Positions 18,906 through 59,417 of a DNA stretch of 64,000 nucleotides are shown here, piece by piece (within the stretch, counting starts at the first letter, position 1; each line of letters starts with the position of its first letter). The DNA is taken from contig CAILLK010000044.1 in assembly GCA_903835005.1 (NCBI GenBank), forward strand, positions 1 through 64,000, read 5' to 3'. A program made the translations under genes and the position numbers. Source of the stretch: an uncultured Bacteroidota bacterium (GTDB lineage: Bacteria; Bacteroidota; Bacteroidia; Chitinophagales; Chitinophagaceae). The notes below the pieces were generated by a model that was not told the DNA's origin, searched no databases, and saw only the letters and a program-made list of their open reading frames with translations.

Positions 18906-19140
18906 TTTCGGCTTTATGCAAAATTACTGAGATTGCTTCGATGCGTTAGGCTTGATTTTCTTTGATTTGGCTAAAGTAACATCTCGCAATGACCATCAAT
19001 TTTTGGGTTTGCTTTATTGGTTAATTTCGGCTTAATGCAAAATTACTGAGGTTGCTTCGATGCGATTGGCTTGATTTTCTTTGATTTGGCTAAAGTAACA
19101 TCTGCGCCATGGCGGCACAATGTCGCAATGACCATCATTT
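18906..19140. repeat. 119-base tandem repeat
   Basis: TTTCGGCTTTATGCAAAATT at 18906 recurs at 19025 as TTTCGGCTTAATGCAAAATT, and the match continues through TTGATTTGGCTAAAGTAACA and CGCAATGACCATCA. The second copy carries an extra block of about 20 bases with GCGCCATGGCGGC. Confidence 0.8.
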
Positions 19141-22836: not shown

Positions 22837-23260
22837 ATATCCAGGGGTGGTAGGGTCGCGGCTGTGCGGGATGTTACACCTGTATTTCCGGTTTATTATT
22901 TCCTGAGCAGCCGCGAGTTAACCACCCCTGGTTACACTCGGCATTCGCCTCGTATAACCGGTCCCCTCCTTCCCGAAAAATCGGGATCCGGAAAAAACAG
23001 GGGGGAGTCTGTTGTGAACCAGGTGAGTGTGTCCGGATGGGCGCGAGTTAACCACCCCTGGTTTCATGAGGCAAAATGCCTCATAAAACCGGTCCCCTCC
23101 TTCCCGAAAAATCGGGATCCGGAAAAAACAGGAGGGGAGTTTGCGAACCGGGAGAGTTTTTCCGGATGGGCGCGAGTTAACCACCCCTGGTTTCATGAGG
23201 CAAAAGGCCTCATAAAACCGGTCCCCTCCTAAAAACAGGAGGGGAGTTTGCGCTACCGGC
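22785..23260. repeat. Cluster of palindromic mosaic repeats (right of the DUF559 gene)
   Basis: Four units are seen. One is reversed at about 22785-22855, with inner palindrome ATATTTGAGGC ... GCCTCAAATAT. Three are forward, at about 22914-23030, 23045-23155 and 23175-23255. In the first two forward units the CCTCC/GGAGG hairpin loop is filled by a second palindrome, TTCCCGA ... TCGGGAT; in the third the short loop TAAAAACA remains. The open frames across this cluster on both strands are repeat translations, not genes. From 23260 to 23522 nothing else is evident beyond a short CCCCG/CGGGG hairpin at 23467-23484. Confidence 0.8.
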
Positions 23261-24365: not shown

Positions 24366-24707
24366 ATTACATATATAAATTCAGTTTCCGCCATTGTTAG
24401 TGTTTTTTACCAACAATATCGTGAAGGGAATGGATGGTTTTCAGAATTGGGATTTTTGGGATTGGATATCTGAATCAGGATTTACAGGATTAAAGGATTT
24501 TCAGGATTGTGGGTAAGGTTGTCTGAACTGGGATTTTTGGGATTAAAGGATTATGGGATTGGATGTCTGAATCAGGATTTTTGGGATTAAAGGATTATGG
24601 GATTGTGAGGGTGATAAATTAAAAAAAGCAAACGATGAGGGTAAGGACGGATTTTAGCCATGTGGTAGAGTGTTTATAAACTGCCTATTGAGTTCAAGGA
24701 GGAATTA
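24366..24707. repeat. Intergenic stretch with degenerate GGATTAAAGGATT repeats
   Basis: No gene is seen. Between about 24430 and 24605 there are three or four degenerate direct repeats of TCTGAATCAGGATTT plus GGGATTAAAGGATTATGGG. This type of sequence recurs between genes in many Bacteroidota. The last 40 bases lead into a small open frame with a good ribosome-binding site. Confidence 0.7.
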
Positions 24708-25337: not shown

Positions 25338-25586
25338 GATTTGGAGCGTCGGTTAATAGGTTGATAAGTTGATATGTCAAGTGAATAGAAGAGGTATATA
25401 TTAAATATAATTTTTAAAGAGATTGAAAATAAGATTTGTCAACTTTTGAAAAGTTGTCGGATCTGCCAGAGGATAAAATATTGAGTACGGATTAAAGAAA
25501 AGATTACTAATAAGATTTGTCAACTTTCGAAAAGTTGCCAAATCTGCCAGATGATAAAATATTCAGTACGGACTAAAGAAAAGATT
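25338..25586. repeat. 81-base tandem repeat with palindrome, leader of the giant gene
   Basis: AAGATTTGTCAACTTT occurs at 25431 and 25512 (81-base offset) and the match continues through GATAAAATATT and AGAAAAGATTA. Each copy contains a palindrome, at 25432-25464 and 25513-25545. The second pairs AGATTTGTCAACTTT with AAAGTTGCCAAATCT, with one mismatch. The second hairpin ends 41 bases before the giant gene's ATG, so it may lie in its transcript leader. Confidence 0.8.
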
Positions 25587-28500
25587 ATGAGAAAACTACT
25601 ATTTTCACTGTGTTGCGTTTTGGGAATTGCTGCTGCGAACGGGCAGACGACTACCACTATCAATTCGGGTACTACTGTTATCAATACGGGCGCTACTTAC
25701 AATATACCCTTCGGGTTTTTTGTGAATAACGGCCAGTATACCGATACTGTTAGTCCTGGCGCTATGAACGTAACCGGAGGGGTAACCTTCAGCGGCAGCG
25801 GCTTCACACAGGAGTGGAACCTTAATTTTCTCACATCGGGCACCAATGATATGAGCGCCTCCGGGGTGCAGGTGTTTCATACCGCTACGCTGAATAGCGG
25901 TGTGAGCCTGAATGCCGGCGCTGCAAATCTGAACCTGAGGACGGATGATTTCGTGGCCGGGGCTTACCGTATTGCCAGCCTGGTGAATAACGGCTTGCTT
26001 ACGGGTACGGTTAACGGGCTTTCGGTCTATTTGGGCGGGGTAGACTACCGCACGGCTACCACCAGCGGGGCGTGCCCTTTTTCTCCGGTACTTTCTACGA
26101 ATGTTACAGGAACATCGATGGTTTACCAGTGGCAGAAGTCTTCAGACAATATAACTTTTAGTGCAATATCGGGCGCTACCAGCGCTACTTATACACCTAC
26201 AGTAACAGCAGTAGGTTACTATCGTTGTGCGCTGAGTACGAGTAATACCGCTTATACGCAAAATACGCCAAGTGTGCAGCTTACGCCTACGGGATTGCCT
26301 TCAATTACCATAACCGGTGGTAATGTGCCATTATGTACAGGCAGCGGTTACGGTGTATCGGGCAGCGGCTGGCCTGTAGTAGCAGGAACAAACGATACAC
26401 TTACGGCTACCAGTGCGGGCGCAACTTTTACCTGGGCGCCGAGTACGGGTCTGGGTTCTACCACATCGGGGGCAACGGTGCATCCGGGTATCAGCGCACT
26501 TACCACAAATACTACTTATACCGTTACAGCAACTGTGGGCGGCTGCAGCAATACTGCTACCAAAACAGTAAGTGTGAACACTACATCGCCGGTTAGTGTA
26601 ACCGGGGCGCATGACAAAGGTTCGTGCCAGAATTCTTCTTGCGCGCCGGGATGTCATACTCCTGTACCCATTACTGCTACGGGCGGAACTTCCTATACAT
26701 GGCTGCCTTATCTGCAGCTTACGGCCAGTACAGGCGCAGTTGTAACGTGTACTATCAATCTGCTGCCGAGCTATGCCCGAACCTATACGGTAACGGGAAC
26801 GGATGCAAACGGGTGTAAGTCGAAAGACACGGTAAAAGTAGAAGTTGTGAATAATTTGGCATTAGCGACCTTCGACGGCAACTCTACCATCAATTATGTG
26901 CCTGGGCAGTCAATTCCTATCCAGATGTACGCAGTTAACAATGCTACTTATCTCTCCGGCTTTGATGGCTACCAATACCACGACTCTATTAGTTATACCT
27001 GGGCCCCAACGACGGGAATAACGGGACATAATGTATACTGGGACACCTTTACCATAGCGCCTGTGGGTATACAAACGTATACGTATACGGGAACCTACCT
27101 GGGGTGCCCTGTAGACACGAGCGACGGGAACGGGGCTGGGGATACCGTACAGTTTGTGCCGTTCGGGATATCGGGCGGAGGAACAATAAGTCCCGGAGGG
27201 CATACTACGCTTACCCAGACCGGAGGTGCCAATATAATGGGCTGGAGCTGGGCCCCGACTACGGGGCTTGCAAACAGCACCGCTGCCACGACAATGGCCT
27301 CGCCGACTGTAACTACTGTTTACACATTAACGATTACGGACATTTTTTACTACACCACCACTGATACTGTAACGGTGGCAGTGTCGACGTTCGCGGTCGG
27401 GGCAACAGGAGGAGGCACTATATGTACAGGGGGGACAGGAACCCCCCTTACCGGAACTGGTGCGACGACCTATACATGGGCCCCTGCCGGAGGCCTGTCG
27501 GCTACGACAGGAACTACGGTGACGGCAAACCCTACGGTTACGACCACCTATACGGTAACTGGGGTAACGGGTATAAATACGGGTACGGCAACAGTAACGG
27601 TAAGTGTGAACACGACACCAACAACAGGCATCAGCGGGGGAGGTGTGCCCATATGTGCCGGAGGATCGGGGGCAGTGCTGTCCGGAACGGGTGCAACAAC
27701 TTATACGTGGGCGCCGAATACAAATATTACGGCAACATCTGGCAGCCCCGTGACGGTAACGCCGACAACGACTATAACCTATACGGTAACCGGAACCAGC
27801 AGCGGGTGCAGCAGTACAGCAACGCAGCAGGTGACGGTGAACCCCGTGCCAACGATAACACTGGGGCTGAACCCGAGTGTGGCAACGGGCTTTACAAAGG
27901 CCAACCTGCCGTACTCGGCAACTACAGGGTCTCCAACTACCTATAGTATAGCCTACAGCAGTGCGGCGCACACAGCAGGATTTACAGATGTAACCACCAA
28001 TGCATTGCCGGCATCACCAATAGTGCTGACACTACCGGGGGCTGCACCTGCAGCTACCTATACAGGTACGCTTACGGTAACTGCGGCGGGATGCAGCAGC
28101 ACCAACTACCCGATAAGTGTGAATATAAATACGACCGGAACATGGTCATTACTCACCAACGTGGCGCCTAATTTTAATGCAGGGGTAATGTTGCTGATGA
28201 CCGATGGAACGGTGATATGTAAAAATAACAGCGGTGGCGGCTATGGTACCGGATGGGACAAACTGACCCCTGATGCTACCGGCAGCTATAAAAACGGATC
28301 ATGGACCAGCATTGCCAGTATGGCTAATGACCGCCTGTACTTCTCATCGCAGGTATTGCCAGATGGCAGGGTGTATGTAGCCGGAGGTGAGTATGGAGCC
28401 GGAGGTAATAAAAGTGAGGTATATGATCCGGTAGCGAATACCTGGACTGCATGCCCGCAGATAGTATATGGCGCTAATATTTCGGATGCGAATTCGGAAT

Positions 28501-31500
28501 TACTGGCCAATGGAAATGTGTTGCAGGCAGTAGTGGATTCCGGAGGTACTGTATTGAATTATTTTTATAATCCGACCTCTAATACTTATACCCATGCGCC
28601 ATCGTGCCTCAGGGTAGATAACGAAGCGCCGTGGGTTAAGCTTCCGGATGGCAGCATTCTTTTTGTAGACAACTACGGCACAACTTCAGAGCGGTATATA
28701 CCCGGATCGAATACCTGGGTAAATGACGGTACGGTGCCGGTATCGTTGTTTGACCCATATGGCGAAGAGGCAGGTGCAGCATTTTTACTGCCCAACGGAC
28801 AGGCCTTCTTCCTTGGATCTACCGGGCATACTGCCTATTATACTCCATCCGGTACCAGCACCCCCGGCACCTGGACAGCAGGCCCTGACATGCCAAACGG
28901 CCAGGGAACACCAGATGCGGCAGCATCCATGATGGTGAATGGTAAAATAATATGTGCGGTAGCTCCGGCTCCTTATGGCGCGAGCCATGGTACCACTCCG
29001 GATAGTCTTTTCCGTACACCTACTTCATTTTATGAGTTTGATTATACAGTTAATACATTTACCAGGCTTCATGCGCCAACGCTGCTGACAGGCGATACAA
29101 TGAGCGGCGCTAGCTATACAACAAATTTCCTTGAGTTGCCCGATGGTAATATTATGTTTACCAAGCAGGGGTATAAGAACTACTGGTTATATACCCCATC
29201 AGGTACGCCGCTTGTAGCAGGCCAGCCAACACTGGACAGTGTGATAGAAACAAGTTGTACCACCTATACTGCAACCGGTAAATTGTTTAACGGTATCAGT
29301 GAAGGAGCCTGTTATGGAGATGACTGGCAGATGTCGACCAACTATCCTATAGTAAGGCTTACTGCAGGTACCAATGTATATTATGGCAAGGCGACCAACT
29401 GGAACAGGCTGGGTGCGGTAATGACCGGATCGGCGCTGGATACAGTACAGTTTGCACTGCCATCGGGATTACCTAATGGTACCTACACTGTAGTCATTTC
29501 AGCCAACGGTAATTCATCAAATTCCAAGACCATCACCACAGGGCCACCAACGATTGTTGGTACCGGCGGCAGTATATGCTCAGGCGCTGGCCCGGTTGCG
29601 ATATCGGCATCAGGCGCCAGCACTTATACCTGGACGCCGGCAGCTACACTTTCGGCCAGTACTGGTGCAACTGTTTCTGCAAACCCGACAGTTACAACAG
29701 TATATACCATAACAGGAACCACCGGAGGTTGCAGCGCAACTGCTTTAGACACAGTGAATGTGGCATCTTTGCCAACGGTTGGCGTAACAGCAGGCACAAA
29801 CCCCACATGCGCAGGCAGCCCGACAAGCCTCAACGGAAGCGGGGCAGCTACCTATACCTGGGCGCCAAATACAGCCCTGAGCGCAACAACGGGAACTACA
29901 GTAACCGCTTCGCCGACAACCACCGTTACCTATACGGTAACCGGTACGGCATCGGGCTGCAGCAACACTGCGACTGTGCAGGTGACGGTGAATCCTTTAC
30001 CGACAATTGGCATTACCGGTGGTACTACCCCTATTTGTACCGGTGGAACCGGCACTTCACTATCTGCCACAGGCACTTCAACTACTTATATATGGTCGCC
30101 TTCTACAGGTTTATCGGTAACGACAGGAACACCTGTAACGGCTAATCCGACTGTTACAACAACTTATACTTTAACCGGAACAGATATTAATTCCTGTCAG
30201 AATACTGCAACGCGGCAGGTAACTGTTAACACAACGCCAACCGTAAATGCAACACCAGCATCGCAATCGGTGTGTAACGGAAACAATAATACTGCAATCA
30301 ATTTCACTGGCGCTACCGGATATACCTGGAGTAACAGCACATCCGCTATAGGAATCGGATCGTCCGGCACAGGGAATTCTATTATTTCTACCACTTTGTC
30401 GAATACCGGGACTTCGCCAGTTATAGCAACCTTCACAGTTACCGGTACTACCAGCGGCTGTGCAAGCGCACCGGTTAATTTTACGATTACCGTGAATCCG
30501 ACACCTGTGATGACGGTAACACCAACCAGCCAGACAGTATGTAACGGTAGCAATACGACAACAGAGACATTTAATTCGGGTGTAACAGGAACTACTTATG
30601 CCTGGATTAACAGCAATACTTCAATAGGTACAGGAGCTTCGGGCACCAGCAGCGGAATAACGTCATTTACCGCTGTTAATACCGGTACAGCAACTGCCAC
30701 AGCCAGCTTTACAGTAACACCTACCGCAAACACCTGCCCCGGCCCGATACAGACATTTACTATAAATGTGAATCCTACGCCTGTAATGACGGTATCGCCA
30801 ACCAGCCAGACGGTATGTAATGGTAATAATACCACGATGGAGACATTTACATCGAATGTTACCGGTACTACTTATGCCTGGAGCAACAGTAACCCGACAA
30901 TAGGTGTACTGGGATCGGGTGTGGGTAACCTTATTAACTCATTTACGGCAACCAATACCGGAACGGCACCTACGGCAGGTAACTTTACTGTAACACCGAC
31001 AGCAAACAGCTGCCCCGGCCCGATACAGACATTTACCATAAATGTGAACCCAACACCGATAATGACGGTGACACCTACCAGCCAGACGGTGTGTAACGGT
31101 AGCAATACTACAACAGAGACCTTCAGTTCGGGTGTAGCGGGTACAACCTATGCCTGGACCAACAGCAATACTTCAATAGGTACAGGAGCTTCTGGCACCA
31201 GCAGCGGAATAGTCTCTTTTACCGCTGTTAATACCGGTACAGTAACTGCCACAGGTAGCTTTACAGTAACACCTACAGCAAATAGCTGCCCCGGACCGAT
31301 ACAGACATTTACCATAAATGTGAACCCGACACCGGTAATGACGGTATCGCCAACCAGCCAGACGGTTTGTAATGGTAACAATACTACGATGGAGACTTTT
31401 ACATCGAGTGTAACCGGTACTACTTATGCATGGACTAACAGTAACCCGACAATAGGTGTACTGGGATCAGGTGTGGGTAACCTTATTAACTCATTTACCG

Positions 31501-46500: not shown

Positions 46501-49500
46501 GTGTTGTAACCGGAGTATCTGCAGGTGCAATAACCATCACTTATGCCTTATCTACCGGATGCCAGGTTACTTATCCGATAACAGTCAATCCATTACCAGG
46601 TTCAATTACCGGCCCTTCTGCAATCTGTAATGGAACTTGTGTAACTTATACAGACCTTACTTCAGGCGGAACATGGAGCAGCAGTACTCCAGCAGTGGCT
46701 ACTATAGGGTCAGCAACAGGAACACTATGCGGTGTAGCTGCAGGCACCACCAATGTTGTCTATACTATTACCGCAACAGGTTGTTTGATTTCAACTCCTG
46801 TAACGGTTAGTCCGATACCTGCTTCAATAGGTGGAACACTTGCTGCATGTGTGGGTGGTGGAACGACCCTAACCAATACAGTATCGGGCGGAACATGGAG
46901 CAGCAGTAACCCTTCTATTGCCTCAATTGGCACAGGTGGAGCTGTAAGTGCAATTTCTGCAGGTGTTACCCAGATTACTTATTTATTGCCCGCAGGTTGT
47001 TATGTAACTGCCAATTATACAGTCAACGCACTGCCTTCTGCAATCACAGGGACCAATGTAATATGCCAGGGCCTGACCACAACATTGTCTGATGCAACAC
47101 CGGGTGGTGCCTGGACAGCTTCAGGAACTGTGGCAGTAGGTGGAACAACAGGAATCGTAACAGGCAGCTCAGCAGGAACTGGTACAGTAACTTATACCAT
47201 TGCCGGCTCATGTATTGCAACCTACCCGATGACGGTTAATCCGCTTCCGGCAGCAATTACCGGAACAGTTAATGTATGCGTGGGATTAACTACAACACTC
47301 AGTACAACGAGCACCGGCGGAAGCTGGACCAGCAGTAATCCTGCAGAAGCTACCGTAACAGCAGGTGTGGTTACCGGCGTTCTGGCTGGAACACCAACAA
47401 TTACTTATACATTACCTACCGGCTGTATTATTACCAAGCCAATAACTGTAAATCCAAACCCGGCTGCAATTACAGGTATACTTACCGTATGTGCAGGAAG
47501 CACAGTAATACTGGCCGACGCTACACCTGGCGGAAGCTGGAGCAGTTCAGCTCCTGCAACAGCAACGGCGCTGTCGGGCCTCAGTGTTATTTCAGGGGTA
47601 TCAGCTGGTACAGCAACCATCAGTTATATAGTTACTGCAACCAGTTGTTATGCAACTACAACTGTAACCGTAAATGCAAGCCCTGCACCAATTGTAGGTT
47701 CTCCGGTTATATGTATTGGTCATTCAACAACTTTGACAGATGCAGTTGCCGGCGGAACATGGAGCAGCAGTAATGCCTCTCTGGCTACTGTAGGCGGTAC
47801 AACCGGTGTGGTTAACGGGCTTCTGCCTGGAAACCCGGTTATTACGTATACATTGGGCAGCTGTTCCACTTCTGTAACAGCTTCTGTTAACCCGGCTCCT
47901 GCAGCCATAACAGGTACGTTCACTGCATGTCCGGGAGCGACTACCTTCCTGATTGATGCAACATCAGGCGGAACATGGAGCAGCAGTAATCTTGCAATAT
48001 CTACAGTATCAACAACGGGTATTGTGACCGGACTGCTTCCAGGAAACGATACCATCACTTATACGTTACCTACAGGATGTGCTGTAACAGCAGGAATGAC
48101 GGTTAATCCGTTGCCGTCAGCAATTACCGGAAGTAATTCCGTTTGCCTTGGGTCAACAATTATCCTTACCGATACCACTTCAGGCGGATCGTGGAGCAGC
48201 AGCAACACAACGTTGGCAACGGTGTCGGGTGGCCTGGTAACGGGTGTTGGAATAGGGAGTACAAGTATAGTTTATACATTGCCTACAGGCTGTAGTATAC
48301 CAAGACTAATTACTATTAATCCGCTTCCATCTTCTATTTCAGGTATTACTACTGTATGCGCAGGAAGCGCGATTACATTGAGTGATGCTACCCCAGGCGG
48401 AACCTGGAGCAGCAGCCCTTCATCTGTAGCTACAATAGGATCCACAACCGGAGTCGTTACCGGGGTGGGAGCAGGAAGTTTTACAATCACCTACTCATTG
48501 CCTACAACATGTTCGGCCTATTCAACCGGCACCGTTAATGCGTTACCAACTATATTTACTCTTACCGGCGGCGGTAGTTACTGCGCAGGCGGAGCTGGAG
48601 TGCATATCGGGTTAAGCGGTTCGGCAACTGGTATCAATTACCAGTTATACAACGGAACTACCCCGGTTGGCAGCGCACTTGCAGGTACAGGTTTGGCTTT
48701 AGACTTTGGTCTGATTACCGCAACAGGTACCTCATATACGGCAATTGCTACCAACCCTCTGACCGGATGTACACAAACAATGAATCATACTGATACTGTT
48801 GCAGGGTATGCTCTGCCAGGTGTATTCACGGTTACCGGTGGTGGCACTTATTGTGCCGGCGGTTCAGGAGTCCATATCGGATTATCCGGATCAGCAACAG
48901 GCATCAATTACCAGTTATTCATCGGCTCTTTACCGGTTTCAACCCTTATAGGTACAGGGGGTACGCTGGATTTCGGCGCTCTGACTGCAGCAGGTTTATA
49001 TACTGTAGTTGCCACAAACCTGTCTACGGGTTGTGTTAACAATATGACAGGAAGCGCTACAATTTCAATTAATCCGTTGCCAACGGTTTATTCCGTAACA
49101 GGTGGAGGTAATTATTGCAGTGGCGGAACAGGTGTGCATGTTGGATTGAGTGGCTCACAGTCAGGATACAGCTACCAGTTGTATAACTCCGGAACTCCGG
49201 GAGTTACGCTGACAGGAACAGGAGCTGCTCTTGATTTCGGCCTGATAACAGCCACCGGCACCTACACAATTGTAGGAACATCAACTACCAGTTGCACAGT
49301 AAATATGTCGGGCAGCACAATAGTGGGTATTAATCCACCGCCAGCGGTGTTTAGTTTAACTTCAACAGGAAGTCTGACTTATTGTATCGGCGGTACTCCT
49401 CCGCATATTGGTCTTTCAGGTTCAGCTTCAGGAATAAGCTATCAGTTATACAACGGAGTAGTACCTTATGGCAGCGCTGTAACCAGTACAACCGGCGGAA

Positions 49501-52500
49501 CAATTGATTTCGGCCCGATTACTTCTTCAGGCACATATACAGCCATAGCAACCAATCTGACTACCGGCTGTACAATTTCAATGTCACTGAGTATTACTGT
49601 AACAGTTAACCCATTGCCGGCTGTATATACAGTAACAGGCGGAGGCAGCGCTTGTGCAGGCGGTTCAGTAGCAATAGGGTTGAGCGGGTCTCAAACCAGC
49701 ACTACTTATTATTTGTATAGCGGAGCAACACTTTATGCTTCGTCAACTCCAGGTTCTACAACAGGCTTCAGCTTCGGTACATTCACCACTGCAGGTACCT
49801 ATACAGTTACTGCAACCAGCGGAACATGCAGTTCTTCAATGACCGGAAGCGCATCAATTACAATTAATCCGCTGCCAACATTATATACCGTTACCGGTGG
49901 CGGCGGATATTGTGCAGGTGGAAGCGGCACGCTGGTAGGCCTGAGTGGTTCACAGAGCGGTGTAAACTACCAGTTATTAATAGGAGGATCTGCTATCGGA
50001 TCACCAGTGGCCGGAACAGGTTCCTCAATCAGTTTCGGATTACAGACAACAACAGGAACCTATACTGTTCAGGCTACAAATACCGGAACACTCTGTACTG
50101 CTACAATGACCGGAAGCGCAGCAGTTTCAGTTAACGCGCTGCCAACAGCCTATGCAGTTACTGTATCAGGTGGCGGCGCTTATTGCAGCGGCGGTGCTGG
50201 CGATTCAGTTGGTGTTGCCAATTCGCAAAGCGGCGTAAGTTACCAGTTGTTCCTTGGCGGCACGCCATCGGGCAGTGCAGTAACCGGGGTTACCGGTTCA
50301 CCGGTTAGTTTCGGTACCCGGACAACTCCAGGCGCATACACAGTTACAGCAACTAATATCACAACCGGATGTACGAATACTATGACCGGAAGCATTACCA
50401 TCACTGTAACCGGCTTGCCAACGGTATATTATATGACCGGTGGCGGCGAGTTCTGTGCCGGTGGAAGCGGTGTTAGTGTTGGCCTAAGTGGTTCCCAGAC
50501 AGGGGTTAACTACCAGTTGTTTACGGGAGGCACTCCGGGAGCTACAGTTGGCGGAACAGGTTCACCGATCACTTTCGGATTAATCTCAATACCAGGTACA
50601 TACACAGTTGTTGCAACCAGTGGTACTACTTCCTGCTCCAATAATATGTCGGGAACTGCAGTAGTGGCAGTGAATTCCTTACCTACAGCATATACCGTTA
50701 CAGGAGGTGGCAGTTATTGTGCAGGTGGTACAGGAGTTGATGTAGCATTGGGCGGATCAGCTTCAGGTGTGAGTTACCAGTTATCTGTTGGTGGTGTAGC
50801 TACCGGCGGTGCGATTTCAGGAACTGGTGCAGCGCTTGATTTTGGTATGCAGACAACTTCTGGTACTTACACAGTAACAGCTACCAATATTTATACCGGG
50901 TGTACTGCAACCATGACCGGTTCAGTAACTGTGTCAATCACATCATTACCTACAGCCTTTACGGTGACCGGTGGTGGTACTATTTGTGCAGGCAGCTCAG
51001 TTGCAGTTGGTCTAAGCGGTTCGCAGTATGGCTTAACCTATCAGTTATATAATGGTTACACATTAGTGGCCACGGCTGTAGGAACCAATTTTGCAATCAG
51101 TTTTGGCAGCTATTCCACAGGAGGCACTTATACAGTAGTAGCAACAGGTGGCGGTTCATGCGTAAGCAGCATGACCGGCAGTGCGACTATTACTGTTAAT
51201 CCATTGCCGATTGCCTACAATGTAACCGGTGGCGGCAGCTTCTGCTCAGGCGGTACAGGCGTATCAGTTGGCTTAGACGGATCGGATCCGGGAGTTAACT
51301 ATCAGTTATATGCAGGTGGGGTACTTGTTCCCGGAGCGCTTATTTCCGGTACAGGGTACGCACTCAGTTTCGGATTACAGACTACCGGAGGCGCTTACAC
51401 AGTTATCGGTACCAATTCTTCCACAAGCTGCAGCAGTACAATGACCGGCAGTGCAACCGTTTCTCCAAGTGCGTTACCAACCCTGTTCCCTGTAACAGGT
51501 GGCGGAGCTTATTGCTCGGGCAGTACTGGCGTTCATGTAGGTCTGGGTGGATCAACATATGGGGTTAGTTATCAGCTTTATTATGGCTCAACAATTGAAA
51601 TCGGGCCATTGACCGGCACTGGTTCTTCTCTGGACTTTGGGTTAATGAGCGGAGCAGGTACTTATACTGTTGTAGCAACAGATCCTTCAACCGGTTGTGT
51701 ATCTACTATGTCGGGAAGCGCAACTATTACCATCAATCCGCTACCAGGATTATTTACTGTAACCGGCGGCGGAGCATTCTGCAGCGGTGGTACAGGATAC
51801 CCGGTAGGGCTTAGTGGTTCGGCTACAGGTGTAACATACCAGTTGTATCGCAGCGGTGCATCAGTTGGTACTCCATTATCCGGCACAGGCGGTACCCTCA
51901 GCTTCGGAACATTTACTATGGCAGGTACCTATACAGTAATTGCAACTATTACTGCTACAGGCTGTACCAGATCAATGACAGGAAGCGCAACAATTACAGT
52001 TAATCCGTTACCTACATTATTTACAGTTACCGGCGGCGGCAGTTATTGCCCGGGTGGTTCCGGTTTCCATGTAGGGCTGAGCGGATCCACCAGCGGTATT
52101 CACTATCAATTATACAGAGGCACTACTCCGGTAGGAGCTTATATGACAGGAACCGGTGGTACGCTTGATTTCGGGCTGCAGTCTGTTGCAGGTACCTATA
52201 CAGTAACAGCTACCAACCCCGCTACATTATGCAGCGCTACAATGACCGGCAGTGCAGTAATTACAATTAATACTGTACCGACTTCTTATACCGTTACCGG
52301 TGGCGGCAGTTATTGCTCCGGATCGGGTGGAAGTATAGTAGGCCTTAGCAACTCTGATGGCTCAGTAAGTTACCAGTTATATATAGGAGGTGTAGCTACA
52401 GGTTCGGCAATGACAGGTACAGGCAGCAGTATTAGCTTCGGTGCACAGACAGCTGCCGGAACGTACACAGTGGTTGCAACTAATACTACAACAGGTTGTA

Positions 52501-54350
52501 CGGCTACAATGTCGGGCAGCGTAACAGTCAGCATATCTTCATTGCCATTAACCTATACGGTTACCGGTGGTGGTGTATCATGCAGCGGTGGTACTTACTT
52601 CCATGTTGGCCTCAGCAGTTCGCAGGCTGGTATCACCTATGTATTATCGAATGGCGGTACAAGTGTAGCTACCTTAACCGGAACAGGTGTTGCTCTTGAC
52701 TTTGGTACATTCAGTGCACTGGGTACCTATACCGTTACCGGTACCAACCCATCTACGTCATGTACCAATAATATGACCGGCAGCGCTGTAATAGGCCTTG
52801 CAGGAGGTATTACCGGATATACAGTGACGGGAGGTGGTACATATTGTGCCGGCGGAACAGGATACCACATTTACCTGAGCGGATCCACAACGGGTATCAA
52901 TTACCAGTTGTACCGGGGCACAACTGCTGTTGGCAGCACAGTGTCAGGAACCGGAGCTTCACTTGATTTCGGATTGCAGACAATAGCCGGAGGTTATAAT
53001 GTCGTAGCAACTAATCCGTCTACAGGATGTTCGCTGTCTATGACCGGTAGCGCATCGATAGCTGTAAACGCACTGCCTGCTGCATATACCGTAACCGGTG
53101 GTGGCAGCTATTGTACAGGCGGTTTCGGTTTGCATGTCGGTTTAAGTTCATCAGATGCCGGAATGCACTACCAGCTGTATCTTGGATCAACAATGGTGGG
53201 ATCTTACCTTACCGGTACGGGTGGGGCGCTTGATTTCGGTACCGTGACTTCTGCCGGTACCTATACGGTAGTAGCAACCAACATCTATACTACCTGTACC
53301 AATACAATGACAGGAAGCGCAACAATTACAATTCTGTCTCTGCCATCAGCAGGAACAATATCTGGTCCGACTACTGTGCATACGGGCGCAACGATAACCC
53401 TGACCTCCACCGTTAGCGGCGGAGTATGGTCATCGGCCAGCGGACATGTATCCATCGGGTCTTCTACAGGTATTGCAACCGGTGTATCGGCAGGTGGTAC
53501 AACTATACATTATACTGTAACCAACACCTGCGGATCGTCTGTAGCCAGTTATGCAGTTTCAGAAGTTGGAGCGAAGAGCACTCCGGCAGGAACAACGGAA
53601 ATCTGTGTTGGCGCTGCTGAATCACTGCCAGCACCAGCTGCCGGCGGTATCTGGAGCAGCGATAATAACGATGTAGCTACCGTAGATGCCCAGAGCGGAA
53701 TGGTAACCGGTGTGGCAGTGGGTACAACTCATATCAGCTACCTTGAAACAGATATGACCGGGGCGTCGTCAGCAACCATTACTCCGGTTATTGTGGTTCC
53801 GGCCCCTGATGCTGTGATCCTGAAAGCTGATCCGGGTACAACAATTGCTGCTGGCCAGAAACTGACCCTTACTGCTGCTGTTAATAACAACAGTCCTGTA
53901 GTAGCTTACAGCTGGTCGGTAAATAATGTGGTTGTGCCGGGCGCAAATACCAAAACTTACACCAGCAGTGCATTTGCTGATAATGATGTGGTGAACTGCA
54001 GTATTGTTGGCCAGTGCAACAGCACAGTGCTGTCATCCTCGGTTAAGATATCTATTACCAGCGAAACTGTTCAGCCTCTCAGTGTAACCAGCGATATCAG
54101 GGTAGTACCTAATCCGAACAATGGTACATTTATCATAATGGGAACAACCGGAAGCACTGCTGATGAGGTGGTAAGAATAGAACTGACTGATGTGCTCGGA
54201 CAGGTTATCTACAAGGGCAATGCAACTGCAAAGGGTGGCGCTCTGAATGAGAAAGTACTGCTGGGCGGTCAGATTGCAAATGGAATGTATCTGCTTAATG
54301 TGAACACTACAAAACAACAACTGGTATTCCATGTGGTTGTAGAGCAATAA
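25587..54350 (+). CDS. Giant T9SS-secreted repeat protein with four beta-propellers (about 9,587 aa)
   Basis: One frame of 28.8 kb. The start at 25587 gives a signal peptide (MRKLLFSLCCVLGIAAANGQ); the frame is open to 25551. Approximate order by residue: Ig-like region (20-850), kelch/galactose-oxidase-like domain (850-1310), Ig-like and PKD-like repeats (1318-2190), TIG plus seven FG-GAP repeats (2195-2650), PKD-TIG plus seven FG-GAP repeats (2730-3285), cadherin-like domain (3288-3395), Ig-like tract (3400-4450), six NHL repeats (4455-4800), Ig-like (4865-5260), BIG2-like tracts (5260-6575, 6860-7655), YQLY modules (6682-6858, 7655-9250), BIG2/PKD-like (9250-9500) and a type A T9SS sorting domain (VVPNPNNGTFII ... 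LTDVLGQVIY, 9502-9587). Nearly every repeat carries two Cys. FG-GAP DxDGDG loops suggest calcium binding. Secretion and surface display are well supported; adhesion or matrix function is inferred. It has its own terminator and no obvious operon partner. Confidence 0.92.
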   Translation: MRKLLFSLCCVLGIAAANGQTTTTINSGTTVINTGATYNIPFGFFVNNGQYTDTVSPGAMNVTGGVTFSGSGFTQEWNLNFLTSGTNDMSASGVQVFHTATLNSGVSLNAGAANLNLRTDDFVAGAYRIASLVNNGLLTGTVNGLSVYLGGVDYRTATTSGACPFSPVLSTNVTGTSMVYQWQKSSDNITFSAISGATSATYTPTVTAVGYYRCALSTSNTAYTQNTPSVQLTPTGLPSITITGGNVPLCTGSGYGVSGSGWPVVAGTNDTLTATSAGATFTWAPSTGLGSTTSGATVHPGISALTTNTTYTVTATVGGCSNTATKTVSVNTTSPVSVTGAHDKGSCQNSSCAPGCHTPVPITATGGTSYTWLPYLQLTASTGAVVTCTINLLPSYARTYTVTGTDANGCKSKDTVKVEVVNNLALATFDGNSTINYVPGQSIPIQMYAVNNATYLSGFDGYQYHDSISYTWAPTTGITGHNVYWDTFTIAPVGIQTYTYTGTYLGCPVDTSDGNGAGDTVQFVPFGISGGGTISPGGHTTLTQTGGANIMGWSWAPTTGLANSTAATTMASPTVTTVYTLTITDIFYYTTTDTVTVAVSTFAVGATGGGTICTGGTGTPLTGTGATTYTWAPAGGLSATTGTTVTANPTVTTTYTVTGVTGINTGTATVTVSVNTTPTTGISGGGVPICAGGSGAVLSGTGATTYTWAPNTNITATSGSPVTVTPTTTITYTVTGTSSGCSSTATQQVTVNPVPTITLGLNPSVATGFTKANLPYSATTGSPTTYSIAYSSAAHTAGFTDVTTNALPASPIVLTLPGAAPAATYTGTLTVTAAGCSSTNYPISVNINTTGTWSLLTNVAPNFNAGVMLLMTDGTVICKNNSGGGYGTGWDKLTPDATGSYKNGSWTSIASMANDRLYFSSQVLPDGRVYVAGGEYGAGGNKSEVYDPVANTWTACPQIVYGANISDANSELLANGNVLQAVVDSGGTVLNYFYNPTSNTYTHAPSCLRVDNEAPWVKLPDGSILFVDNYGTTSERYIPGSNTWVNDGTVPVSLFDPYGEEAGAAFLLPNGQAFFLGSTGHTAYYTPSGTSTPGTWTAGPDMPNGQGTPDAAASMMVNGKIICAVAPAPYGASHGTTPDSLFRTPTSFYEFDYTVNTFTRLHAPTLLTGDTMSGASYTTNFLELPDGNIMFTKQGYKNYWLYTPSGTPLVAGQPTLDSVIETSCTTYTATGKLFNGISEGACYGDDWQMSTNYPIVRLTAGTNVYYGKATNWNRLGAVMTGSALDTVQFALPSGLPNGTYTVVISANGNSSNSKTITTGPPTIVGTGGSICSGAGPVAISASGASTYTWTPAATLSASTGATVSANPTVTTVYTITGTTGGCSATALDTVNVASLPTVGVTAGTNPTCAGSPTSLNGSGAATYTWAPNTALSATTGTTVTASPTTTVTYTVTGTASGCSNTATVQVTVNPLPTIGITGGTTPICTGGTGTSLSATGTSTTYIWSPSTGLSVTTGTPVTANPTVTTTYTLTGTDINSCQNTATRQVTVNTTPTVNATPASQSVCNGNNNTAINFTGATGYTWSNSTSAIGIGSSGTGNSIISTTLSNTGTSPVIATFTVTGTTSGCASAPVNFTITVNPTPVMTVTPTSQTVCNGSNTTTETFNSGVTGTTYAWINSNTSIGTGASGTSSGITSFTAVNTGTATATASFTVTPTANTCPGPIQTFTINVNPTPVMTVSPTSQTVCNGNNTTMETFTSNVTGTTYAWSNSNPTIGVLGSGVGNLINSFTATNTGTAPTAGNFTVTPTANSCPGPIQTFTINVNPTPIMTVTPTSQTVCNGSNTTTETFSSGVAGTTYAWTNSNTSIGTGASGTSSGIVSFTAVNTGTVTATGSFTVTPTANSCPGPIQTFTINVNPTPVMTVSPTSQTVCNGNNTTMETFTSSVTGTTYAWTNSNPTIGVLGSGVGNLINSFTATNTGTAPIAGNFTVTPTANTCPGPVKTFTINVNPTPIMTVTPTSQAVCKNSSTTAELFSSSVAGTTYAWTNSNTAIGTGASGIGSSISSFTATNAGSTPISGNFTVTPTANSCPGPIQTFSITVNPLPVVTFTAQPGANACTSTNVTYTTQSGMSSYVWGFTGTAGVDYNIMSGGTSGSNTVTLQYFTAGPQVVSVNYTDGNGCTAASATTSTPTAIKLAPAITSVSAASGIPGNSVTLTGTGFNSTAANDIVYFGSVKANVTTASATSLTVNIPNEAVYYPMISVENNSCGLMAYAPSPFLPTYNNTGTVLSTVNFDPKVNFTVGSSANRIGYGDVDGDGKTDIIVNNSGTGTVSVYPNTSTSGTVSFGSAVVVATGLSFPGQPSMADFDGDGKLDLVFLAATGPASVRVYQNTSTVGSFSFALPVIIPYVTNANVSAIADVDGDGRPDIIGNWLSTMSVFRNTSTVGSLSFATRVDFSTPANINYICAGDLDGDKKQDILVSTSGGTTSLSIFRNTSTPGSISLATRQDFTTPAGSGNYVATGDIDGDGKQDVLIIDQGSSQWSLFPNTSTSGSISLGTRTDYTVGPNSASLFVADFDGDTKPDVVATSISGSTAQVFRNTSTPGSFSFAPSVPFATGSGGASLAAFDIDGDGKPDFVTLNQSTTTMSVFLNDPLKPITGPTQVCAQGTTLTTITLADATPNGTWTSSNTLLATVGSTTGVVTGLSAGVVTITYAGTSTGGPNLGNYTTYTVTVNALPSPTFTSAPAANICPNTVQTYTTQTPESNYIWSVPGSAPTDYVITGGGIGTGSNTVSLMWYSSGSKTVTVTYTNAAGCTNGTAATNTTSVTPVPTITGVSPTVDSAGQLVTLTGTGFNTSSPNIIWFGATKTMATSAGGTSVTATVPNEGTIRMITLDNPGCNSIAYSSPYFVPSYTPLITNLVHFQPKADFGINALSGVTVIADMDGDGKADLLTISSSLNNFSVLQNTCTTPGTASFGTQQIFSLGASANPSFVTTADVDGDGKQDVIVSDYGTNSIAVYRNTTTVPGTFTFAPVVTIPGITNPALISIADIDGDGRPDIIAGNNSDNNMRIFLNTGSVGSPSFGTAYLLASAVGYKATSVAIGDFDGDGKKDIAIGNQAAGSGSVSVFRNTSIPGTLSFGTINTFTAGRNVYATAVADIDGDGHADIAVTNFTDGTVSSFRNTSSGIGNINFATQVISTVGSGPLALDFGDFNGDGLPDIAVANFSSTAASGASVLRNTTVGTTISFATAVPEAIDGNANGIAVGDLDGDGKADFAVTNQSVSQMSVIINQPDSPPIFTAGNPQTLTVCQGSNNHVNTNLQISDADLGQTETWTVVTLPSHGVLTGVASYTATSTGGVITPAGMSYIPNYTYSGSDVFVVQVNDGFITTTTTVNVTVTPFPISVSPSYSPFVCGGVPTTLTVTGGSGYSWSPSASLSASTGNPVTATPTVTTVYTVVVTGGAGCSATTTATVNINPSPGLTATGGAYCTGGFTPISAAGGTTYTWTPNSYLTASTGYAVIANPPTTTTYSVSTTNSFGCTSVVPVQVTVNPYPVLTVTPSFSGCTGVGAPLSVSGATTYSWYPSFGLSTTTGSSTVFTTTVTGIYTIGVWGTSNGCSTPGSLTVTINPVPGALTTSPNVAICNGGSTTMTVSGATSYSWAPSGSLSSATGASVVASPTATTTYTVTGSNGYGCSTTALITVSVNSTPTISAGPGVAICNGSSTPLTATGATTYTWAPFSTLSSSAGTTVTASPTTTTTYTITGSSGVGCVGTGLVTVTVNPLPTIGVSGGGAICAGGSGATLTATGGTTYTWSPGTGLSATSGSTVTANPPSITSYIVTGTTAGCSNTASVTVTVNPLPTVGAVAGAAYCSGGSTSLTASGASTYTWSPSTGLSATSGSPITANPTSTTIYTVTGTNGLGCSNTATATVTVNPIPTITAVATGGAICPGGSNTLTAGGGTLYSWAPSTGLLVTTGSPVTATPTVTTTYTVTGTASGCSNTASVTVTVNPAPVVSAGSGAGICTGGNTTLTATGAATYTWAPAGSLNASTGFNVTATPTTTTTYTITGTSGAGCTGTGYVTVTVSPIPSISIATVTPICSGNSTTLTASGGTTYSWAPSAGLSASSGASVTANPGSTTTYTVTGTTAGCSGTATRTVTVNPSPTLTFTPSSTVCFTGSTSVSVSGSGSYTWTPGTGLSTTAGSTVTANPGSSTVYTVTEGASGCNTHATVTITPYPTVLASGGTTVCAGSPAVLGASGASSFSWSPSGSLSCGGCSNPTATPGSTTTYTVTGTTAGCSNTSTVTVSVNPLPTVTASAGAPYCSGAGSASLTAGGATTYSWAPNTNLSASVGSPVTASPTVTTIYTVTGTAAGCSNTATATVTVNPLPTISAGPGVAICAGNNTALNATGGLTYTWAPAATLNSTTGMSVTATPTTTTTYTITGVGTTCTGTGYVTVTVNGLPANINLPVNSYVINLLAGNGTGTFGGDSGPATSAGISNPYNVAVDGAGNIYIVDYGNNRIRKVTTSGVITTVAGSSGTGYTGDNGPATSATFSGDIEGLAVDGPGNLYIADAINSVIRKVNTSGIITTIAGGGVSTADGVQATAESLNYPTGVATDLTGNIYIADDGNSTIRKVSTSGIITTVAGTTGSPGFSGDGMAATLAQLHDPYNLTVDASGNLYIADYTNQRIRKVNTSGIISTFAGTGTFGYSGDGGAATSANINGPYAITTDGIGNVYFAEYDGKRLRVINSSGIINSLAGTGADAYGGSGGLSTLSPIGGPAGIAVDGNGNIYAGEFDVNRVVKISGASLCVGSGLTLSDNVGGGIWSSSNPSVATVAASTGSVSGLAPGTTTISYTNGSSCAKTISLTVNALPTVSATGNSLCAGGAAVAISASGATTYNWAPNTALSATTGASVNANPGSSVTYTVTGTNNLGCSNTATAVVTVNPLPTVSAGSGTTTCSNVSVTLSGTGASTYAWSPAGSLSATSGASVTASPTTTTTYSVIGTSAAGCHNSPAATVTVTVNTAPAIGITGGTSAVCSGTGTSLSGTGGSSYTWSPAGSLSSSAGTTVTATPLTTTTYTVTGTNGTCSNTATKTVTVNALPTVTVSSGVTICSGTNTTLTAGGATTYSWSPSTGLSSTVGSAISASPTVTTTYTVTGSNGTCNNTATVMVSVNPSPTPSFTTSPGASSCVGDQVTYTTQSGYSNYSWSIPGGYTLISGSAGTGSNTITLSWPSTGPETVTVNYQNIYGCSGVTAASNTTTVNASPLPIAGASAVCPGTTALVTESSPSGSWSSSSPSNASIGSGTGIITGIAAGTATISYTIGTSGCYVVRPLTVNPLPALISGLPFMCAGSTSTFTDASSGGTWASLNTSIATITSGGLVSALMVDSVEITYTLPTTCLTSTWVYINPNPSAIAGTFTLCGGATTTLTDPTPFGTWTSSNTTVASIGSTTGLLTGLTPGNSTITYSLGTGCQVTQVITINAIPSVSPIGGTPTVCNGLTTTLTDGTPSGTWSSINPSVALVTGGVVSGVGVGTSTISYTVTSGGCTGYALQLVTVNPLPSAIAGNVPVCVGNNITLTDAGGGTWSSSATGVAGIGASTGVVTGAGPGNSTITYTLPVTGCTTTATVTVNSLPVVTAIGGATQECIGQTTTLTESTGSGTWSSSNLAVGTINSGSGAITGIGAGTTTITYSVTNGAGCTNYVTYTFTVNPLPAAIGGTMVICQGAITGLSDLTTGGTWSSSASAVGTIGATTGILTGTGPGNTTVTYTLSTGCTATAVVTVNGIPSAPSGTLSVCVGLTTTLTATPSGGTWSSSNPGQGSINSSGVVTGLAAGTPTITYTSTAGCFNTQQITVNPLPSAISGTLSACAGSTSLLADAGGGTWTSGTTSVAGIGPVTGLVTASTAGNSTITYTLPTGCQITAVFTVNTMPGAITGTASACVGNSTVLSSLPGGGIWSSSDPSFATVAASTGSVTGVTAGIITITYTLGAGCYTTVPFTVNPLPSAIMGTASVCSGLTTTLSDFGGGSWTSSAPLTAGVGLTTGLVTGGTPGTATITYTLPVTGCTTNVIVTVNPLPTSITGTLSMCAGLTTTLTPTPGGGSWSSSNATIASVTGGVVTGLTAGTATITYTLSTGCILTTIVTVNPNPAAISGTPTVCTGNTSLLTDASSGGTWSSSSSVNAPVGSTTGVVTGNVAGTYTITYTLTSTGCINTTSFTVNPNPTAFTGITNVCVGLTTTLNSTPSGGTWTSSLPAEGSISGPGFVTGVSAGAPVISYTLGTGCYTTGSVTVNALPSAITGATVLCTGTSGTVTSSPAGGSWSSGTTSVAGIGTSTGIINALIAGNSTITYTLPTGCLTTVVETVNGTPTAISGIASVCVGLTTTLNSTPGTGTWTSSNTAEATVSATTGIVSGVAAGTPVITYTLGSGCYITKQVTVNALPALISGASSVCVGQTALVMDATSGGTWSSSSPSNGSINTSGVITGNIAGVVTISYTLPTTCVATWPFTVNPMPSAITGMGAICPGSTLTLSSSPTGGTWSSSNPSEATIGSSTGLVTGVSASTPTMTYTLAAGCNVTAQVTVNPAPNVSVFTAPSASSQCIGLPSTVNINSISLGAATYTMGYTLSGANSGSGTPSVTMLSGFGSFTIPATSLTSSGTTNVTINTITNSLGCVTTLTGSNVAIFSVYPLPTVFTVSGTGSYCSGGAGLHVLLSGSTAGVNYQLYLGGVATGGPVAGTGSPIDFGAYTTAGTYTVVATNATTGCVSNMTGSAVITVNPLPVAQTVTGGGSYCAGGTGVTIGLGGSQTGVNYQLYLAGSTVGIPVAGSGGSISFGLETAAGIYTVIATNTSTTCVNAMTGTATITINPLPTVITGTFSVCSGQSTTLGSTPSGGTWSSSAPTVASFGTSAGTVTGGIAGTATLTYTLPTGCAVTAPFTVNALPSSIAGPTAVCVGNSISLASLPSGGTWSSSDISLATASGSVVTGVSAGAITITYALSTGCQVTYPITVNPLPGSITGPSAICNGTCVTYTDLTSGGTWSSSTPAVATIGSATGTLCGVAAGTTNVVYTITATGCLISTPVTVSPIPASIGGTLAACVGGGTTLTNTVSGGTWSSSNPSIASIGTGGAVSAISAGVTQITYLLPAGCYVTANYTVNALPSAITGTNVICQGLTTTLSDATPGGAWTASGTVAVGGTTGIVTGSSAGTGTVTYTIAGSCIATYPMTVNPLPAAITGTVNVCVGLTTTLSTTSTGGSWTSSNPAEATVTAGVVTGVLAGTPTITYTLPTGCIITKPITVNPNPAAITGILTVCAGSTVILADATPGGSWSSSAPATATALSGLSVISGVSAGTATISYIVTATSCYATTTVTVNASPAPIVGSPVICIGHSTTLTDAVAGGTWSSSNASLATVGGTTGVVNGLLPGNPVITYTLGSCSTSVTASVNPAPAAITGTFTACPGATTFLIDATSGGTWSSSNLAISTVSTTGIVTGLLPGNDTITYTLPTGCAVTAGMTVNPLPSAITGSNSVCLGSTIILTDTTSGGSWSSSNTTLATVSGGLVTGVGIGSTSIVYTLPTGCSIPRLITINPLPSSISGITTVCAGSAITLSDATPGGTWSSSPSSVATIGSTTGVVTGVGAGSFTITYSLPTTCSAYSTGTVNALPTIFTLTGGGSYCAGGAGVHIGLSGSATGINYQLYNGTTPVGSALAGTGLALDFGLITATGTSYTAIATNPLTGCTQTMNHTDTVAGYALPGVFTVTGGGTYCAGGSGVHIGLSGSATGINYQLFIGSLPVSTLIGTGGTLDFGALTAAGLYTVVATNLSTGCVNNMTGSATISINPLPTVYSVTGGGNYCSGGTGVHVGLSGSQSGYSYQLYNSGTPGVTLTGTGAALDFGLITATGTYTIVGTSTTSCTVNMSGSTIVGINPPPAVFSLTSTGSLTYCIGGTPPHIGLSGSASGISYQLYNGVVPYGSAVTSTTGGTIDFGPITSSGTYTAIATNLTTGCTISMSLSITVTVNPLPAVYTVTGGGSACAGGSVAIGLSGSQTSTTYYLYSGATLYASSTPGSTTGFSFGTFTTAGTYTVTATSGTCSSSMTGSASITINPLPTLYTVTGGGGYCAGGSGTLVGLSGSQSGVNYQLLIGGSAIGSPVAGTGSSISFGLQTTTGTYTVQATNTGTLCTATMTGSAAVSVNALPTAYAVTVSGGGAYCSGGAGDSVGVANSQSGVSYQLFLGGTPSGSAVTGVTGSPVSFGTRTTPGAYTVTATNITTGCTNTMTGSITITVTGLPTVYYMTGGGEFCAGGSGVSVGLSGSQTGVNYQLFTGGTPGATVGGTGSPITFGLISIPGTYTVVATSGTTSCSNNMSGTAVVAVNSLPTAYTVTGGGSYCAGGTGVDVALGGSASGVSYQLSVGGVATGGAISGTGAALDFGMQTTSGTYTVTATNIYTGCTATMTGSVTVSITSLPTAFTVTGGGTICAGSSVAVGLSGSQYGLTYQLYNGYTLVATAVGTNFAISFGSYSTGGTYTVVATGGGSCVSSMTGSATITVNPLPIAYNVTGGGSFCSGGTGVSVGLDGSDPGVNYQLYAGGVLVPGALISGTGYALSFGLQTTGGAYTVIGTNSSTSCSSTMTGSATVSPSALPTLFPVTGGGAYCSGSTGVHVGLGGSTYGVSYQLYYGSTIEIGPLTGTGSSLDFGLMSGAGTYTVVATDPSTGCVSTMSGSATITINPLPGLFTVTGGGAFCSGGTGYPVGLSGSATGVTYQLYRSGASVGTPLSGTGGTLSFGTFTMAGTYTVIATITATGCTRSMTGSATITVNPLPTLFTVTGGGSYCPGGSGFHVGLSGSTSGIHYQLYRGTTPVGAYMTGTGGTLDFGLQSVAGTYTVTATNPATLCSATMTGSAVITINTVPTSYTVTGGGSYCSGSGGSIVGLSNSDGSVSYQLYIGGVATGSAMTGTGSSISFGAQTAAGTYTVVATNTTTGCTATMSGSVTVSISSLPLTYTVTGGGVSCSGGTYFHVGLSSSQAGITYVLSNGGTSVATLTGTGVALDFGTFSALGTYTVTGTNPSTSCTNNMTGSAVIGLAGGITGYTVTGGGTYCAGGTGYHIYLSGSTTGINYQLYRGTTAVGSTVSGTGASLDFGLQTIAGGYNVVATNPSTGCSLSMTGSASIAVNALPAAYTVTGGGSYCTGGFGLHVGLSSSDAGMHYQLYLGSTMVGSYLTGTGGALDFGTVTSAGTYTVVATNIYTTCTNTMTGSATITILSLPSAGTISGPTTVHTGATITLTSTVSGGVWSSASGHVSIGSSTGIATGVSAGGTTIHYTVTNTCGSSVASYAVSEVGAKSTPAGTTEICVGAAESLPAPAAGGIWSSDNNDVATVDAQSGMVTGVAVGTTHISYLETDMTGASSATITPVIVVPAPDAVILKADPGTTIAAGQKLTLTAAVNNNSPVVAYSWSVNNVVVPGANTKTYTSSAFADNDVVNCSIVGQCNSTVLSSSVKISITSETVQPLSVTSDIRVVPNPNNGTFIIMGTTGSTADEVVRIELTDVLGQVIYKGNATAKGGALNEKVLLGGQIANGMYLLNVNTTKQQLVFHVVVEQ
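28140..29530 (+). other. Kelch / galactose-oxidase-like beta-propeller domain in the giant protein
   Basis: Residues about 850-1310 contain kelch-type blades: MLLMTDGTVICK, DRLYFSSQVLPDGRVYVAGG, KSEVYDPVANTWT, ERYIPGSNTWVNDG and NFLELPDGNIMFTKQG. The final part (TYTVVISANGNSSNSKTI) resembles the beta-sandwich domain that follows galactose-oxidase-like propellers. No copper ligand set was verified, so catalytic activity is not claimed. Confidence 0.7.
30505..31890 (+). repeat. 276-base in-gene repeats in alternating A/B arrangement
   Basis: Five 92-residue units start near 30505, 30781, 31057, 31333 and 31609 with MTV(T/S)PTSQTVCNG and end with CPGPIQTFTINVNP. Units 1, 3 and 5 share TVTPTSQ openings; units 2 and 4 share TVSPTSQ with TTMETFTS and IGVLGSGVGNL. 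The longer similarity is therefore between units 552 bases apart, showing duplication of a two-unit block. Confidence 0.85.
32170..35450 (+). other. Duplicated PKD-TIG-FG-GAP block with two seven-repeat propellers
   Basis: Each block has a TIG domain (VTLTGTGFN) followed by seven FG-GAP repeats with D-x-DGDG-type loops. Set one runs GDVDGDGKTD, ADFDGDGKLD, ADVDGDGRPD, GDLDGDKKQD, GDIDGDGKQD, ADFDGDTKPD, FDIDGDGKPD. Set two runs ADMDGDGKAD, ADVDGDGKQD, ADIDGDGRPD, GDFDGDGKKD, ADIDGDGHAD, GDFNGDGLPD, GDLDGDGKAD. Seven repeats is the number expected for a closed integrin-alpha-like propeller. Confidence 0.8.
38950..39990 (+). other. NHL-repeat beta-propeller in the giant protein
   Basis: Residues about 4455-4800 carry six NHL repeats with the pattern VAVDGAGNIYIVDYGNNRIRKV, separated by GDGGPAT-like loops (TYTGDNGPATSA, GFSGDGMAAT, GYSGDGGAATSA). 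Six blades fit a closed NHL propeller. The region interrupts two Ig-like tracts. Confidence 0.8.
48550..53340 (+). repeat. Array of 18 YQLY modules near the C-terminus of the giant protein
   Basis: Units of about 85 to 90 residues follow the consensus VTGGGSYC-GG-G-HVGLSGS--GVNYQLY, then a short variable loop, G-G--L-FG, a TYTV-ATN strand, a second Cys and MTGSA-ITINPLP. Two further copies lie at 45630-46160 between BIG2-like tracts, 20 in all. The variable loop after YQLY differs most between units. I do not recognise a named domain family. Confidence 0.8.
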
Positions 54351-59328: not shown

Positions 59329-59417
59329 TGTGAGATAAGGAGTAGAGGAGGTAGTTAATATATTGAATCCTTTTTTTAGATTTACGTAATATTCAGGTTT
59401 AAACTTATCAAAATAAA

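Follow-up and report, generated by a model that had tools for sequence, protein, structure and literature searches.

Very large proteins exported by the type IX secretion system (T9SS) are already known, as are bacterial reading frames longer than the one considered here. The closest solved homologue of the present protein is GhpA (grappling hook protein A) of Aureispira sp. CCB-QB1 (PDB 9flp, 9fls, 9flu, 9flv, 9flw, 9flx, 9fly, 9g8b), a chain of 5,898 residues; the available part of PMC11205867 describes grappling hooks as T9SS-secreted heptamers used with a type VI secretion system (T6SS), and the titles of the PDB entries suggest that these hooks are GhpA. SprB, the motility adhesin of Flavobacterium johnsoniae, is described in the accessible portion of PMC9143113 as a very large and highly repetitive T9SS surface protein of 669 kDa. 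We describe here a gene located at 25587-54350 (+ strand) of a 64,000-nucleotide window (positions 1 to 64,000 of contig CAILLK010000044.1, assembly GCA_903835005.1) from an uncultured member of the Chitinophagaceae, the product of which, hereafter the giant, is a single chain of 9,587 residues. Size by itself is not novel: the novelty is a stalk of fixed length under differing heads, and the giant is a deviant member of this stalk family under an exceptionally long mosaic head.

Like GhpA, which the excerpted text of PMC11205867 gives as a T9SS substrate, the giant is a very long chain with immunoglobulin-like (Ig-like) arrays that would be exported by the same system; its Ig76 array is homologous to GhpA in sequence, and GhpA is the best structural match to the predicted model of its Ig89 array. 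The giant is, however, 1.6 times longer, has four propeller modules, and comes from a genome in which TssC was not found. The likeness is one of repeats. To our knowledge, Giant1-5 of Apilactobacillus kunkeei, a lactic acid bacterium, are not T9SS proteins. They resemble the giant in their length (3,000-8,000 residues), signal peptide, long internal repeat region, conserved C-terminal segment and purifying selection, whereas the repeats of Giant1-3 are alpha-helical (PMC12863079, in the part available). Single frames of more than 20 kb, some with adhesion domains, also occur in Omnitrophota, the longest cited reaching 39,678 residues, but these mostly have few annotated domains and poor conservation, and the accessible text of PMC10066038 mentions no T9SS Ig stalk. 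The original prediction had held that very few bacterial proteins are so large, a view that needs amending in the light of that published figure and of the other long frames of the genus (see below).

Domain layouts were read in 36 other long proteins from a set of 35 genomes of the genus, the giants being sampled non-randomly from the top-scoring matches and several being cut by the ends of contigs or stretches. The canonical stalk, at the C-terminal and presumptively cell-side end, consists of a D6580 module, two Ig89 domains, eleven Big72 domains, twenty Ig89 domains, some 280 residues and a type A tail. These counts (2+11+20) recurred in 13 proteins of eight genomes, one of which has an Ig76 domain in the second Ig89 place, and the proximal length was confined to 3,221-3,262 residues (mean 3,236, standard deviation 12, n = 13) at pairwise identities of 51-89% (median 56%). 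N-terminal to D6580, the 12 full-length canonical proteins extend for 1,202-2,281 residues with 9-22 Big72 copies, counts that may be too low where the profile missed copies; the thirteenth, G025_C80, has a cut N-terminus and was excluded from these distal figures. Copies of the same index compared across twelve of the 13 canonical proteins averaged 59.4% (Big72) and 56.3% (Ig89) identity, as against 53.9% and 51.1% for copies of other index and 55.1% and 51.5% for copies within one protein. Since same-index copies are thus more alike than either of the others, a single ancestral block gave rise to the canonical arrays. Individual pairs often show the register only in blurred form, and in most comparisons with the first reference protein a copy of another number gave the best match.

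Among the 16 best matches to D6580, 13 were canonical, one was the giant and two apparently ran off contig ends (G023:C542, read and found to be cut, and G018:C70, unread). Lower-scoring D6580 proteins exhibited other layouts: in three proteins from two genomes (L167, L168, L170) a run of exactly 25 Ig89 domains and a tail comes after two or three D6580 modules, and another protein (G030) has four Big72 plus 21 Ig89 domains. Because of these other D6580 layouts, and of a distal spread that depends in part on the kind of head, the fixed counts characterise one family and not every giant. The narrow proximal range may point to selection for stalk length, an interpretation against which two considerations weigh: the distal spread is partly due to different kinds of head (six proteins combine a Cad module with 20-22 distal Big72 copies, a spread of just two), and the proximal constancy could reflect slow gain and loss of repeats rather than selection. 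No description of giant proteins of the genus or of a fixed-count T9SS stalk was found in the literature searched and, as far as those searches show, two things are new: a stalk family that spans the genus, with fixed counts on the cell side and heads that vary, and a member whose 9,587-residue chain includes four stacked propeller modules.

The stalk of the giant keeps the order D6580, two Ig89 and eleven Big72 domains, and continues with 18 Ig89 and two Big72 domains (2+11+18+2). Its proximal part of 3,009 residues lies outside the canonical range and is without the canonical block of twenty Ig89 domains; identity to the canonical stalks was 49-53%, and the in-register test indicated that its proximal repeats do not correspond one-to-one with those of the canonical stalks, the copies being out of register. 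The distal part (6,578 residues) is a mosaic. Best matches among the 36 compared proteins were to G011_C205 for the tip (50%), G031_C189 for the Kelch module (57%), C93 of the same genome for the first FG-GAP unit (52%), G031_C179 for the Cad module (65%) and G027_C16 for the NHL module (54%). A genome-wide search identified closer relatives of the tip (68%, a 1,287-residue frame on C65) and of the Kelch module (65%, on C135), both in shorter proteins of the giant's own genome.

The anatomy was established with profiles built from the giant and run back over it, with a coverage of 96%. It comprises 86 domains in four Ig-type repeat families together with four beta-propeller modules (Kelch, two FG-GAP and NHL). 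Pfam and NCBIfam models over their cut-offs were FG-GAP, Kelch, NHL/teneurin NHL, Ig_7, Big_2 and Por_Secre_tail, with PKD and tandem-95 types below. Exactly two cysteines are present in 76 of the 86 repeats; both are invariant wherever Ig89 or Big72 copies are aligned, while in Ig76 one is invariant and the other nearly so, a pattern which suggests one disulfide per bead. Modelling predicted a tandem Ig fold with confidence. The features, in order, are as follows.

25428..25587, + strand: leader of two 81-nt tandem copies, running into the start codon
25587..54350, + strand: giant gene, 9,587 residues plus stop
25587..25646, + strand: putative signal peptide, residues 1-20, from the sequence; helix 3-17 in the model; start aligned in 12 of 15 relatives
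25647..26354, + strand: N-terminal tip, residues 21-256, a beta-rich region and one Ig-like domain
26358..27845, + strand: six Ig76 domains (Pfam Ig_7 type)
28134..29546, + strand: Kelch / galactose-oxidase-like beta-propeller module, residues 850-1320
29556..30233, + strand: three Ig76 domains
30240..31880, + strand: six Ig92 domains in a 276-nt tandem array, resembling PKD_5 below its cut-off
31890..33542, + strand: PKD, TIG and FG-GAP propeller module 1
33540..35456, + strand: Big72, PKD, TIG and FG-GAP propeller module 2
35457..35762, + strand: module labelled Cad, matching tandem-95 weakly at 18.7 bits (cut-off 90)
35781..38945, + strand: fourteen Ig76 domains, with sequence homology to GhpA arrays (E 1.4e-93)
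38961..39974, + strand: NHL / teneurin-type beta-propeller module
39975..41354, + strand: Big72, four Ig76 domains and PKD
41373..45320, + strand: distal array of eighteen Big72 domains
45321..45626, + strand: D6580 marker module, with which the proximal stalk begins
45627..46157, + strand: two Ig89 domains
46173..48548, + strand: eleven Big72 domains, a count equal to that of the 13 canonical stalks
48543..53336, + strand: eighteen Ig89 domains (the canonical stalk has 20)
53358..54083, + strand: two Big72 domains and a stretch with a weak Ig match
54084..54350, + strand: T9SS type A sorting domain (Por_Secre_tail) and stop

A 97-residue module separates the first six Ig76 domains from the Kelch module; nearly the whole tip region has relatives in other proteins of the genus (35-68% identity), and the Cad module is one that we take to be cadherin-like. 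Each 81-nt copy of the leader contains the 17-nt near-palindrome CAACTTTNGAAAAGTTG. A 33-nt core of the leader, allowing up to 3 mismatches, had no further match in the window, and the exact shorter core matched only two of 212 loci, both containing this same site.

The earlier claims of a frame unbroken over 28.8 kb, with a signal peptide and a T9SS type A domain at opposite ends, were borne out, the latter by sequence and profile matches: the frame has one terminal stop, and its product a mass of 938 kDa and an isoelectric point of 4.3. The stop-to-stop length is 9,621 residues. The other five frames of the region contain 287-758 stops, and a base-composition model gave some 466 expected stops for the giant frame and a chance of about 1e-208 that it should be open. 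The ATG at 25587 is favoured over the in-frame alternative at 25551 (9,599 residues), since in 12 of the 15 relatives aligned a methionine occupies the equivalent site and a signal-peptide-like stretch follows it. Despite the repetitive look of the frame, its longest exact internal DNA repeat is only 32 nt, with no position falling within a repeated 35-mer, and collapse of short reads is therefore unlikely; against the 12 other loci of the own genome that were compared, no shared exact stretch is longer than 26 nt, and on these two grounds an assembly artefact was set aside. The window contains no N, and the source assembly consists of 163 contigs.

Matches to the Big72 and Ig89 profiles were present in all 35 genomes of the genus, and stop-to-stop frames reached 11,279 residues (G029) and 9,551 residues (G027), with many of 4,000-7,900 residues, so that the rarity of such size that had been claimed does not hold within the genus. 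The 11,279-residue frame (L071-L073; G029:C10) contains 62 Ig89 domains and also matches the type A tail of the giant, and that of 9,551 residues (L074-L076; G027:C16) has 51 Big72 domains and 15 NHL-profile matches. Nor is Ig89 limited to the genus, since a search of the order with its profile matched 54 of 298 genomes (E <= 1e-12, own genome included); frames of 5,000-6,400 residues with Ig89-like domains were found elsewhere in the order. The possibility of a lone record-breaking gene was rejected in view of these longer and comparable frames.

The type A tail of the giant scored 28.1 bits against PF18962 (cut-off 27; 32.6 bits for the tail alone) and 30.8 bits against TIGR04183 (cut-off 23), and the only sorting-domain models that it matched were of type A. 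The same genome encodes SprA, PorV-family proteins and two PorU-type sortases, each over its cut-off, and no fewer than 150 type A tails, a figure based on the scoring of 150 out of 334 candidates. Signal peptide, type A tail and the presence of SprA, PorV and PorU together point to the giant as probable T9SS type A cargo. The reading that we favour, at a probability of roughly 0.7, is that the giant reaches the surface through the T9SS and works there as a very large adhesin or capture fibre with a multi-propeller head. It would be exported via SprA and PorV as one type A cargo and trimmed by PorU, with its C-terminal end retained on the outer surface, and would then form a long flexible fibre of Ig-like beads, most of them with one cysteine pair. 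The cell-side section, drawn from the stalk family of nearly fixed length, would lift the mosaic head of four beta-propellers and a small N-terminal domain away from the cell, where the head would most likely bind a target (a glycan, a particle or another cell) past the cell's own polysaccharide layer. An Ig domain is about 4 nm long, at which spacing the fibre would measure roughly 0.3-0.4 micrometre. The load on the T9SS, which had been predicted to be extreme, would be 1.4 times that of the 669 kDa of SprB, which extends the known range but stays within the same order of magnitude.

Ratios of nonsynonymous to synonymous substitution (dN/dS, NG86) were 0.11-0.29 between five Ig92 copies of the giant (10 pairs) and 0.09-0.19 overall when full-length relatives (4.4-5.5 thousand residues) were compared in four pairs, the latter values being rough because dS exceeded 1. 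In 250-codon windows along the relative pairs dN/dS remained below 0.3, apart from one window at 0.53 and five that gave no value. The proposal that the full-length product is under selection is consequently upheld as regards long products in the family (0.09-0.29); for the full length of the giant itself, of which no orthologue was found, such selection may be presumed.

GhpA was the only PDB sequence matched by the stalk query at E <= 0.01 (E 2.2e-40), the best of three PDB matches to the array of fourteen Ig76 domains (E 1.4e-93), and the source of eight of the 13 top structural matches to the predicted Ig89 model, all of which would be expected of a grappling-hook protein in the strict sense, a GhpA-like multimer that hooks prey subsequently killed by a contractile injection system. 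Such an identity is nevertheless unlikely. The GhpA similarity is a property of the repeat family, since a second protein of the genus included as a control matched GhpA comparably (E 1.2e-62); the Ig89 profile alone gave no GhpA match by sequence; and TssC (PF17541), the sheath gene of the T6SS that partners the hook in ixotrophy and the one injection-system family searched for, was not found in the own genome (99% complete) and was found in 5 of the 35 genomes of the genus. A package of hook plus T6SS for predation is not supported by this gene content. A looser version, in which a stalk of selected length serves as a molecular ruler under interchangeable heads, these being shuffled and in the giant reaching four stacked propellers, and in which the fibres form GhpA-like capture organs, possibly multimeric and operating with no T6SS partner, is put forward tentatively and must be considered doubtful.

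A cell-anchored enzyme scaffold, in which polysaccharides are the substrates of the Kelch and other propellers, with the Ig array serving only to hold these at a distance, is suggested by the Kelch_4 model ('Galactose oxidase, central domain'), which exceeded its cut-off in the Kelch module, and by the GH2 and GH20 genes upstream (7191-11860). This is quite improbable, given that Kelch-motif families were the only ones over Pfam cut-offs in that module (Glyoxal_oxid_N scored 19.1 against 37.5), and that the 60 listed of its 68 PDB matches were mostly Kelch-like proteins, with none of those listed named galactose oxidase (6ryv and 6ryw bear the title 'Kelch domain-containing protein'); the module may be called galactose-oxidase-like by similarity to the Kelch and central domains alone. 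SprB, likewise a very large repetitive T9SS cargo, and the presence of SprA in the own genome would accord with a motility adhesin pulled along the surface by the gliding machinery, but SprB has a type B tail and needs SprF, whereas the giant's tail matches type A models, and no PorP/SprF-type Pfam match was obtained among the 20 open reading frames (ORFs) of the window that were scanned, two of which, including the next gene downstream, had no match of any kind; we regard this role as very unlikely. The least credible reading is that several ordinary T9SS proteins were recently joined in frame, in a region given to recombination, into a full-length product that has no function. It would account for head modules having their best matches in different proteins of the 36 compared, for the lack of detected synteny, and for a fall in G+C content at third codon positions from 0.50 to 0.32-0.43 along the giant, yet it is hard to reconcile with 28.8 kb free of frame disruption and with purifying selection on the internal repeats; the modules are moreover only 34-68% identical to their best relatives, and are therefore old, an argument that applies to the parts and not to their fusion.

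An ORF that matched no Pfam family, prfA and a transposase gene lie downstream of the giant, as do surface polysaccharide genes that could bear on the anchoring of type A cargo: two Wzz-type chain-length genes (one under cut-off) and a Wzy_C/O-antigen ligase gene occupy 58366-61849, just past prfA. The prfA gene was found in 32 of the 35 genomes of the genus, own included, and 8.3-19.2 kb upstream of it were read in 20 of the 31 others. In none of these 20 did that region contain the N-terminus, Kelch module or C-terminus of the giant, or an ordered copy of the neighbouring genes of the window; a TPR-protein match (23-30%) was present at three loci and a 101-residue match to a 280-aa ORF at one. 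A syntenic orthologue beside prfA was thus not found in the 20 genomes read. Upstream of the giant, three adjacent phage tail collar genes are located at 16811-18504, with no other phage-type family among the 20 window ORFs scanned, and intergenic tandem repeats are present at 16048-16612, 18918-19139, 20564-20750, 22912-23230 and 24503-24605, including a 282-nt unit in two copies (97%). A 758-residue protein with collagen-like Gly-x-y repeats is encoded at 9-2285; after it, at 2489-3064, comes a small protein that carries a type A tail of its own.

If the favoured reading of a T9SS-exported surface fibre is right, the family would offer a naturally replicated case for asking what sets the length of a bacterial fibre, in that within the same genes beads of one kind keep a fixed number on the cell side and vary in number on the far side. 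The plausible size of T9SS cargo would rise from 669 kDa (SprB) to about 940 kDa and, should the 11,279-residue relative also be exported, to more than 1 MDa. The set of GhpA-related proteins would likewise extend to a genus with a T6SS sheath gene in 5 of 35 genomes, in which hook-like capture with no accompanying injection may be put to the test.
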